Assembly (NCBI RefSeq): GCF_002729955.1
Contig: NZ_PBYA01000006.1
Location: 1-64,000 of the forward strand
Reading direction: 5' to 3'
DNA length: 64,000 nt
Source of the DNA: Salinisphaera sp.
GTDB lineage: Bacteria; Pseudomonadota; Gammaproteobacteria; Nevskiales; Salinisphaeraceae
Part shown: in pieces, positions 43,823 through 46,099 of the stretch
Position numbering within the stretch: the stretch's first letter is position 1
How the letters are laid out: each line of letters starts with the position of its first letter
Program-made: the position numbers and the translations under genes
The notes under the pieces: model-generated
What the model saw: only the letters and a program-made list of their open reading frames with translations
The model's database searches: none
What the model was told of the DNA's origin: nothing

Positions 43823-46099
43823 TTAACGAATTTCGGTAATGAATGTGTTGTAGCCGGCGCTGCGCATGGCGGATGCAATCGCCTGCGTACGCTCGGGCTC
43901 GCTGATCGCGATCATCGCGCCGCCGCCCCCGCCGCCGGTGAGCTTGGCGCCCAGGGCGCCGTTGTCGCGCGCGATCTGCACCAGTTCCTCGATTTCGCGC
44001 GAGGATACCTGCAGCGCGTTGAGCAGGCCGTGGTCGATATTCATCAGCTCGCCCAGCTCGGCGAGATCGCCGGCGCGCATGGCCTCGGCGCCGGCCAGGG
44101 CCAGCGCATCGATCTGCGAGAAGATCGCCTCGTAGCGTTCGGGGTTTTTCTGCCAGGCCGCACGTACGCTGCCCACCGTCTGCATGGTGAGCGTGGCCAC
44201 ACCCGACAGACCGATGATCACCGGGATGGGCCGCGGCGTGGTCAGATCGCGGATTTCGGCACGGCTGTTCGCGTTTTCGCGACGAAACAGAATCGGCTGG
44301 CCAAAGGTGGCCAGCGTGTTGTCGATGCCGGACGGCGTGCCGTGGGCGATCTTTTCGCAGTCGAAGGCGAGATTGGAAATCTCGCGCTCGCTGATCTGGA
44401 TATCGAAACAGCGCGCCATGGCCCGGATCACCGCCACCGCCAGCGCGGCCGAGGCGCCCAGCCCGTTGGCACGCGGAATATGCGGGAACACGTCGATACG
44501 CATGCCGCGTTCGGCCACGCCCAGCCGTTCGGCGATGAGCGTGATCGAGGCATGCAGCGAACTGACACCGCGCTCCGGTTCGGCCAGACGCATTTCCACG
44601 CCCCAGCGCGGAATGATCAGGTCGATATGTCGATCCTGGGCAGTGACCTCCGCCCGTACGTGCAGCGGAATGGGGGCGGCGATGGCATGCCGACCATAGA
44701 CCACCGAGTGCTCGCCGAGCAGGATGATCTTGCCGTAGCCGATATCGCCCGCGGTGTCCGCATGCTCGATCACCTGCTGCTGGGCGCTGGGGCCAGCGTC
44801 CTTGGCCTGGGCTGTGTCTTCGAGCTCGGCGATGATCTCGCGTGCCTTCCAGACCTTGATATCGCCGGCCGCGACCAGCCGGTCGACCACATCGTCGAAG
44901 ATCGCGGCATCCGCACCGGCGGCCATGGCCACGCTGCGGGCATGCAGCGTCATATGGCCGCGCTGGATGCCGTGGGTCGAGAGCGCCTTGATGGCGGCAA
45001 AGTTCTGCGCCAGGCCTACCGCGCCCATGACCTGCGCCAGCTCCGCGGCCGATTTGATACCCAGCACGCGATGGGCGATGCGTACCGCCTGGTTGGATTC
45101 GACCTGGCCGCCCACGGTGCCGATCTTGAGCGGAATATCGAGCTCGCCCACCAGGTCGCCCTCGGCGTTGGCATACCAGCGGGTCAGGGAACTGTAGCGC
45201 CCGGTGCGGGCGGCATAGGCATGGGCCGCGGCCTCGATGGCGCGCCAGTCGTTGCCGGTGGCGATCGCCACGGCATCGATGCCGTTCATGATGCCCTTGT
45301 TGTGGGTGGTGGCCCGGTAGGGGTCCATTTCCGCGAATTCGTTGGCCAGGATGATGCCGTCGCGTACTTCCTCCCCCGAATAATCGCCCGCGGCCAGGCG
45401 GTCGGTGGGAATGACCGCCTTCGAGCGCACCAGCGCGCGATCGGTGAGATTGGACAGGATGCGCAGGAACACGCGCCCGCCGGAAATCTTTTCCACCAGC
45501 GGTGCGGCGCCTTCGCACATGGTGTTGACCAGGTTCGCGCCCATGGCGTCGCGGGTATCCACCAGCAGATGCACCACCAGCATTTCGCCGTGCGCGGCCG
45601 TCGTGCCGTGGGTATGCACCTCGATTTCGCGGGCGCCGCCGCCGCGGGCGACCATGTTCGGGTGCAGGCTGTTGGCCAGATCGAGAATTTCCTGGGCGTT
45701 CTGCAGCAGCGCCTGGCGGGCGTGGGCGGCATGCGGCACGTCCACGACCTGAATCTGGCCAATCAACAGCGGGCGCTCGGCATGGCTTTCGAAGCCGCCC
45801 GCGCCGCGCACGATCTTGGCCGCGGAGCTTACCGCCGCGATGATCGAGGGCTCTTCGACCACCATCGGCACCAGATAGTCGCGTCCGTTGATCTGGAAAT
45901 TCAGGCCCAGCCCCATGGGCAGTCCGAACACGCTGATGACGTTCTCGATGAGCCGATCGGCCTGATCGGCATTCATCAGGTGGGTGCCGGCCACGAGCAT
46001 TTCGTACTCGCGTTCGTCGATCACCTCGCGCTCGAGCAGAACGCGCAGCCGGTTGGCCACGGAGAACTTGTAGAACGAGGGGATCCGGGAATGGCTCAT
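43823..46099 (-). CDS. fused HMG-CoA reductase (class II) - mevalonate kinase
   Basis: One uninterrupted 758-residue frame carries two enzymes. Residues 1 to about 430 are a class II HMG-CoA reductase: VEEPSIIAA with Glu83, cofactor motif DAMGANLVNTMCE (185-196), THNKGIMNG with Lys268, GNDWRA with Asp284 and GHMTLHAR with His382, matching the Pseudomonas mevalonii catalytic set within one residue. A Gln/Ala/Asp-rich linker (about 425-452) follows. Residues 453-758 are a GHMP mevalonate kinase: GKIILLGEHSVVYG (456-469), ANGLGASAALAVA (544-556), HGTPSGIDN with Asp593 and AKLTGGGGGGAM (718-729). Both halves look complete. The bifunctional product would take HMG-CoA to phosphomevalonate in two steps. 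Confidence 0.95.
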   Translation of the reverse strand: MSHSRIPSFYKFSVANRLRVLLEREVIDEREYEMLVAGTHLMNADQADRLIENVISVFGLPMGLGLNFQINGRDYLVPMVVEEPSIIAAVSSAAKIVRGAGGFESHAERPLLIGQIQVVDVPHAAHARQALLQNAQEILDLANSLHPNMVARGGGAREIEVHTHGTTAAHGEMLVVHLLVDTRDAMGANLVNTMCEGAAPLVEKISGGRVFLRILSNLTDRALVRSKAVIPTDRLAAGDYSGEEVRDGIILANEFAEMDPYRATTHNKGIMNGIDAVAIATGNDWRAIEAAAHAYAARTGRYSSLTRWYANAEGDLVGELDIPLKIGTVGGQVESNQAVRIAHRVLGIKSAAELAQVMGAVGLAQNFAAIKALSTHGIQRGHMTLHARSVAMAAGADAAIFDDVVDRLVAAGDIKVWKAREIIAELEDTAQAKDAGPSAQQQVIEHADTAGDIGYGKIILLGEHSVVYGRHAIAAPIPLHVRAEVTAQDRHIDLIIPRWGVEMRLAEPERGVSSLHASITLIAERLGVAERGMRIDVFPHIPRANGLGASAALAVAVIRAMARCFDIQISEREISNLAFDCEKIAHGTPSGIDNTLATFGQPILFRRENANSRAEIRDLTTPRPIPVIIGLSGVATLTMQTVGSVRAAWQKNPERYEAIFSQIDALALAGAEAMRAGDLAELGELMNIDHGLLNALQVSSREIEELVQIARDNGALGAKLTGGGGGGAMIAISEPERTQAIASAMRSAGYNTFITEIR

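Follow-up and report, generated by a model that had tools for sequence, protein, structure and literature searches.

A class II HMG-CoA reductase and a mevalonate kinase joined in one conserved reading frame of Salinisphaera and other bacteria

Two natural fusions of bacterial isoprenoid enzymes, MvaE and IspDF, are named in the accessible text of a 2026 review of bacterial isoprenoid pathways (PMC13001223). MvaE of Enterococcus faecalis joins acetoacetyl-CoA thiolase to HMG-CoA reductase, with the thiolase at the N-terminus and not consecutive with the reductase. IspDF, of the MEP pathway, is likewise a two-enzyme isoprenoid fusion and joins nonconsecutive steps (PMC13001223), although it belongs to another pathway and its enzymes are unrelated to those described here. 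Otherwise the relevant comparisons are with stand-alone proteins: class II reductases such as those of P. mevalonii, Delftia and Burkholderia, which have an NADH-type cofactor helix with Asp146 and no kinase, and mevalonate kinases such as those of Methanosarcina mazei and Leishmania major, which are separate proteins.

Here we describe a gene in which a class II HMG-CoA reductase is followed in the same frame by the next enzyme of the pathway, mevalonate kinase, so that the partner, unlike that in MvaE, lies on the C-terminal side and is carried on the reductase flap. No description of a reductase-mevalonate kinase fusion was found in searches of the open-licence literature (older evolutionary work in subscription journals may hold one), consistent with an earlier sequence-only reading of this DNA to which no characterised example was known, and the term 'mevalonate kinase' occurs 0 times in the main text of a 2026 preprint that places bacterial reductases in a 6,924-node network (PMC13370337). 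The bifunctional reductase-kinase is real and conserved and apparently uncharacterised, a new architecture assembled from known parts, whose activities are predicted from sequence.

Two enzymes in one frame

The window, by which we mean the whole stretch of DNA analysed, is 64,000 nucleotides of Salinisphaera sp. (contig NZ_PBYA01000006.1, positions 1 to 64,000). A single 758-codon frame occupies 43823-46099 on the minus strand, from an ATG at 46099 to a stop codon at 43825-43823; the plus-strand frame across the same interval is likewise open and was rejected as a gene. As proposed in the sequence-only reading, the frame encodes both enzymes, and both families score above their curated equivalog cut-offs, with NCBIfam model TIGR00532 matching residues 1-387 (412.2 bits, cut-off 259.95) and the mevalonate kinase model TIGR00549 matching residues 456-731 (243.2 bits, cut-off 163.05). 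Pfam agrees with these two calls, and both collections give a reductase from residue 1 and a kinase only, with no N-terminal acetoacetyl-CoA thiolase domain of the MvaE type. The part of the earlier reading that has to be corrected is its treatment of the gene as an isolated oddity, as 101 full-length fused frames, mostly from gammaproteobacteria and Microbacteriaceae, yielded an alignment of 90 distinct proteins and constitute a conserved family spread over dozens of bacterial species. All 39 fusions scanned match the reductase and the kinase models at E <= 1e-30.

The reductase half comprises residues 1-424 (44828-46099, minus strand). The four residues put forward as catalytic, Glu83, Lys268, Asp284 and His382, are all present and are invariant in the 90 aligned fusions; they align with positions 83, 267, 283 and 381 of the P. 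mevalonii reductase structure 1qax, which we take to have catalytic roles. Structural alignment to this enzyme (PmHMGR) gives a Z score of 47.1 with aligned rows up to residue 427, and the half is alike in fold (Z 46-47) and catalytic residues to the stand-alone reductases of P. mevalonii, Delftia and Burkholderia, with about 50% identity. A flap domain of approximately residues 371-424 (44828-44989, minus strand), delimited by analogy with residues 371-423 of E. faecalis HMGR (PMC10070635), bears His382 and is predicted by AlphaFold2 to contain three helices (378-393, 401-411 and 416-434), with the match to PmHMGR spanning residues 1-427. The score above the curated cut-off, the catalytic Glu/Lys/Asp/His set and this three-helix C-terminal flap identify the half as a class II HMG-CoA reductase. 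The dimerisation motif of such enzymes is given as ENVxGx3(I/L/V)P in the accessible part of one study (PMC10070635), and in the window it reads ENVISVFGLP, with Ser56 replacing a Gly that is nearly invariant in a 39-row alignment.

The kinase half comprises residues 453-758 (43826-44743, minus strand) and contains the motifs GYGKIILLGEHSVVYG, ANGLGASAALAVA, CEKIAHGTPSGIDN and GAKLTGGGGGGAMIAI. The phosphate loop (544-556) and Asp593 are where they had been placed, and the glycine-rich motif is present with slightly wider limits (717-732 rather than 718-729). Lys457, Glu463, His464, Glu582 and Asp593 are invariant in 90 of 90 fusions, and Lys457, Glu582 and Asp593 presumably correspond to K13, E193 and D204 of human mevalonate kinase. 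With a score above the curated cut-off, the catalytic Lys/Glu/Asp and three GHMP motifs, the half is assigned to the GHMP mevalonate kinases, and residues 450-758 align with the M. mazei enzyme (6mdf) at Z 36.9. It shares the GHMP fold and motifs with the stand-alone kinases of M. mazei and L. major at Z 36-37 and 31-34% identity. By sequence, the closest solved structure is the L. major enzyme, above archaeal and bacterial ones, and a link between trypanosomatid and bacterial mevalonate kinases is possible.

Flap, linker and tether

Between the two halves lies a linker of residues 425-452 (44744-44827, minus strand), which contains neither Met nor stop codon, as had been noted from the letters. 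It is poorly conserved and predicted to be disordered over residues 434-450. Measured between fixed alignment columns, it varies from 16 to 41 residues among the 90 fusions (30 in the window), and in every fusion aligned the kinase begins 16-41 residues past the last flap helix. Compared with the window protein, the fusions are on average 68% identical over the reductase core, 72% over the flap and 59% over the kinase, and only 13% over the linker. Six Salinisphaera gene pairs give dN/dS values of 0.03-0.13 in the reductase, 0-0.12 in the kinase and 0.19-0.56 in the linker, where few sites are available; both halves are under purifying selection, and the linker far less so. An AlphaFold2 prediction based on 39 fusions reaches a mean pLDDT of 83.9 and shows two confident domains, with pLDDT below 50 for residues 434-450, and its pTM of 0.53 leaves the placement of the halves relative to each other unfixed. 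The linker behaves as a tether, staying open while its letters are little constrained.

We consider it likely, with a probability of roughly 0.86, that the gene encodes a bifunctional isoprenoid enzyme in which a class II reductase, probably NADPH-dependent, carries a tethered kinase whose proximity drives the reductase step forward. The N-terminal reductase would convert HMG-CoA to mevalonate, probably with NADPH, and the C-terminal GHMP kinase, flexibly tethered to the mobile flap of the reductase, would phosphorylate mevalonate with ATP. Each reductase site would have one kinase close to where mevalonate exits, such that mevalonate released from the opened site would encounter a kinase a short tether away and the step would become effectively one-way. 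Class II reductases are described as working in both directions (PMC12292504), and the fusion would pull this reversible step forward and commit its product to isoprenoids. A coupling of mevalonate production to phosphorylation, as suggested in the sequence-only reading, is plausible. We infer that the gene product is a single polypeptide, active at both of its sites with the cofactor as proposed, and that the benefit comes from proximity and not from a closed tunnel. The variable and predicted disordered linker favours loose proximity over a tunnel, and its variability in length and in sequence speaks against a dedicated docking surface in that region.

Another interpretation, compatible with the bifunctional enzyme and not exclusive of it, is that the kinase acts as a regulator or valve, in which occupancy by mevalonate, ATP or a downstream inhibitor alters flap movement and the kinase gates the reductase. 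The position of the kinase just after the flap in all fusions aligned is suggestive in this respect. The flap of E. faecalis HMGR, its last 53 residues, is reported to shut over the site once both ligands are bound and to deliver the catalytic His, so that it must close for catalysis, and in MvaE the fusion partner sits at the opposite end (as described in the accessible portion of PMC10070635). However, the unconserved and predicted disordered linker makes tight mechanical coupling less likely, and the complete conservation of the kinase residues indicates that catalysis is the main role. We regard gating as rather unlikely.

A further alternative, which we consider improbable, is that translation starting inside the linker, or proteolytic cleavage, produces two functional proteins and that the fusion is a mere tight operon. 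The GTG at codon 443 (44771-44773) offers a possible internal start in the window. The sequence-only reading had set this codon aside because it has no Shine-Dalgarno-like stretch; the absence is confirmed, but the argument is weak, because the native ATG also lacks a clear one and initiation may therefore be possible without it. Some ATG, GTG or TTG is found in the linker of 76 of the 90 fusions, 20 of the 90 having a Shine-Dalgarno-like stretch, and a predicted disordered linker could be cleaved. However, none of these codons combines a conserved position with a conserved ribosome-binding site, and the linkers of the other 14 fusions contain no ATG, GTG or TTG at all, which is better evidence for one product than the codon-443 point. 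An ordinary operon would also be free to regain a stop codon, and a break is seen in only one of the 80 best loci of the genome_contigs scan described below (L028, from a MAG).

Cofactor helix and operon context

The cofactor helix of class II reductases is described, in the accessible text of the preprint, as Dx(V/L)xxxL in NADH enzymes and (H/Y)xSxxxR in NADPH enzymes (PMC13370337), and the NADH-using P. mevalonii enzyme is reported to have Asp146, Leu148 and Leu152 (PMC10070635). In the window this helix (146-152) is HPNMVAR. His146 and Arg152 are invariant in the 90 fusions, and the third place is occupied by N, K, Q, R or A; none of the 90 has the Ser of the NADPH motif, and the NADH-type pattern is likewise absent, with Asp at its first place in 0 of 90. 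All 18 aligned helices inspected from the sister-group reductases start with Asp. We propose with moderate confidence that the fused reductase uses NADPH.

The best-scoring model, TIGR00532, is named 'degradative', the nearest solved relatives are the NADH enzymes of Delftia, Burkholderia and P. mevalonii, and the sister group in the reductase tree bears NADH-type helices, all of which would accord with a reductase half that runs backward to break down mevalonate. Such a role is very unlikely, since His146 and Arg152 are invariant where Asp146 would be expected, the operon is biosynthetic, with a decarboxylase and an isomerase, the genome has no DXR or IspH match, and the fused kinase would divert mevalonate from breakdown. 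The name 'degradative' probably misdescribes the fused proteins, given His146, Arg152 and the proposed use of NADPH, and the NADPH-like helix appears to fit biosynthesis rather than this database label.

The gene order in the window is decarboxylase, phosphomevalonate kinase-like gene, fusion and isomerase, all on the minus strand, and is common among fusion loci. The diphosphomevalonate decarboxylase (47218-48204; TIGR01240, 264 bits, above cut-off) has a listed frame that opens at 48297, with the family match beginning near an internal ATG at 48204. It is followed by the phosphomevalonate kinase-like GHMP kinase (46190-47215), whose best model, TIGR01220, scores 128 bits, below the cut-off of 165.7; this gene is faster-evolving than its neighbours, with 27-61% identity compared with 48-87% for the fusion at loci outside the nearest relatives. 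The isopentenyl-diphosphate delta-isomerase gene idi (43235-43816; TIGR02150, 144 bits) starts 6 bases past the fusion stop codon. Among the 90 loci, several of which are too short to include both neighbours, 85 have a phosphomevalonate kinase match immediately upstream and 81 have an isomerase match immediately downstream. Beyond the isomerase, a farnesyl diphosphate synthase (41403-42290, minus strand; NF045485) uses the product of the pathway. On the plus strand an HMG-CoA synthase-like gene is divergently transcribed (48366-49865; the listed frame opens at 48192, and the ATG at 48366 agrees better with the family match), and its product matches TIGR01835 at 149 bits, below the cut-off of 360. 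This protein is longer than the model and below the curated cut-offs, in keeping with a divergent synthase, and a divergent synthase is present in the same divergent arrangement at Microbacteriaceae loci.

Two other genes of the region were noted. A weak HpnM/MlaC relative (42485-43123, plus strand; 108.7 bits, cut-off 160.1) adjoins the isomerase and recurs in several Salinisphaera loci, and a phosphoribulokinase (51101-51985, minus strand; NF011997, 459 bits, above cut-off) is found within a few kilobases of the mevalonate operon.

The genome, whose completeness is given as 100, contains one HMG-CoA reductase and one kinase above the TIGR00549 cut-off; a second reductase was sought and not found, and the search for a second kinase returned only weaker GHMP relatives that score below the cut-off and are encoded by the adjoining genes of the operon. 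DXR and LytB/IspH gave no match in this genome, and the same searches were positive in 10 of 14 control genomes. The fusion is probably the sole source of reductase and of mevalonate kinase in an essential isoprenoid route, and the lack of DXR and IspH matches together with the single reductase and the single kinase above cut-off suggests that both activities are probably essential. This does not extend to all bearers: a DXR match is present in 13 of 30 fusion-bearing genomes (weak and partial in G400) and absent from 17, such that the fusion is not everywhere the sole isoprenoid route.

Distribution and origin of the fusion

An assembly or sequencing artefact joining two separate genes, for which the sole hint is the single in-frame break in L028, can be dismissed, as the frame is intact over residues 1-758 with no stop in 14 of 14 Salinisphaera genomes (including its own), disposing of the hidden stop or frameshift in the linker that the sequence-only reading had allowed for, the fusion is in one frame in 43 of 233 genomes of the family of Dyella (one more has it in two pieces on two contigs), and it recurs across different assemblies and phyla, in independent genomes.

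In the genome_contigs scan the best 80 of 216 relatives all match most of the query, and 78 of these 80 loci have frames of at least 740 aa; of the others, L085 is truncated at 711 aa by the end of its contig and L028 carries the in-frame break. Record titles among the best 80 of 216 include Salinisphaera, Nevskia, Dyella, Wenzhouxiangella, Litchfieldella and Marinobacter, several Microbacteriaceae (Cryobacterium, Frigoribacterium, Homoserinimonas and Terrimesophilobacter), as well as single MAGs with the labels Calditrichia, Planctomycetota, Acidobacteriota and Verrucomicrobia, possibly a result of misbinning. A class-wide draw of 369 genomes contains the full fusion in eight, two of them Salinisphaera, and a further copy, in G193, is truncated where its contig ends. 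When the reductase half alone served as the query in the family of Frigoribacterium, reductases with 66-70% identity were found in 6 of 249 genomes, within frames of 794-883 aa; three of these genomes (G384, G387 and G395) are the source of loci read as fused, and six other genomes have stand-alone reductases. Across 296 genomes of the class of Frigoribacterium, the full fusion was seen, among the matches listed, only in the genome on which the search was centred. Fifty plasmid records match, none covering 80% of the query, and the best rows listed match the reductase part only. Two further candidates, G840 (810 aa) and G113 (713 aa), proved to be stand-alone reductases with open sequence in front.

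The histories of the two halves were compared using FastTree phylogenies, in which the stand-alone proteins are a sample and the supports are local values. The 90 fusions form one clade in the reductase tree, apart from 26 stand-alone reductases (support 0.96; 0.955 with 32), the sampled stand-alone enzymes lying on separate branches. In the kinase tree the fusions also form a clade of their own, apart from the 18 stand-alone kinases placed (0.929; 0.926 with 17). The reductase tree excludes L095, which is a piece of the fused gene of the window itself, and the divergent L125; the kinase tree includes L148 and excludes L153 and L156, which have no BLAST match, and two HMG-CoA synthase::mevalonate kinase fusions. 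L127 (genome G180, 49% identity) is the first branch among the fusions in both trees, and a clade of Salinisphaera and Microbacteriaceae is supported in both (0.961 and 0.997). The two trees contain 52 and 50 well-supported splits, 34 of them in common; 5 splits of the set of 52, and 8 of the set of 50, conflict with the other tree. Reductase and kinase distances correlate with r = 0.93, a value reached in 0 of 999 permutations. With one clade for each half and trees that largely agree, the simplest reading is a single fusion that moved as a unit; there was probably a single fusion event, with later transfer of the whole, including between gammaproteobacteria and Microbacteriaceae.

A second type of fusion, in which HMG-CoA synthase precedes mevalonate kinase within a single frame (739-760 aa), was seen in four gammaproteobacterial genomes (G116, G067, G232 and G332), at L166:657-2939, L167:196-2466, L179:2172-4454 (minus strand) and L180:1513-3732 (minus strand). 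Both models are above cut-off in all four, with 443-488 bits for TIGR01835 and 167-173 bits for TIGR00549. As in the reductase fusion, mevalonate kinase is C-terminal to an earlier enzyme of the pathway; here, however, that enzyme acts two steps before the kinase, and the reductase adjoining in G116 is of the class I type, the L166 fusion lying after the C-terminal portion of such a reductase. A search of the open-licence literature gave no report of this fusion.

The reductase-kinase architecture, unreported in the literature consulted and built from familiar enzymes, is conserved and probably essential, and we consider it moderately surprising. It illustrates that naming from the reductase model alone, as 'degradative', can mask a second enzyme and an opposite role. 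As a natural and long-conserved fusion of consecutive enzymes, the bifunctional enzyme is a ready test of whether joining them raises flux, and it is a candidate part for isoprenoid engineering. The kinase borne on the flap also makes flap-based regulation directly testable. HMG-CoA reductase is usually seen as the rate-limiting step of the pathway (PMC13001223, PMC12292504, PMC10070635), and if the kinase did act as a valve, one polypeptide would sense its own product and set the rate of entry into the whole isoprenoid pathway.
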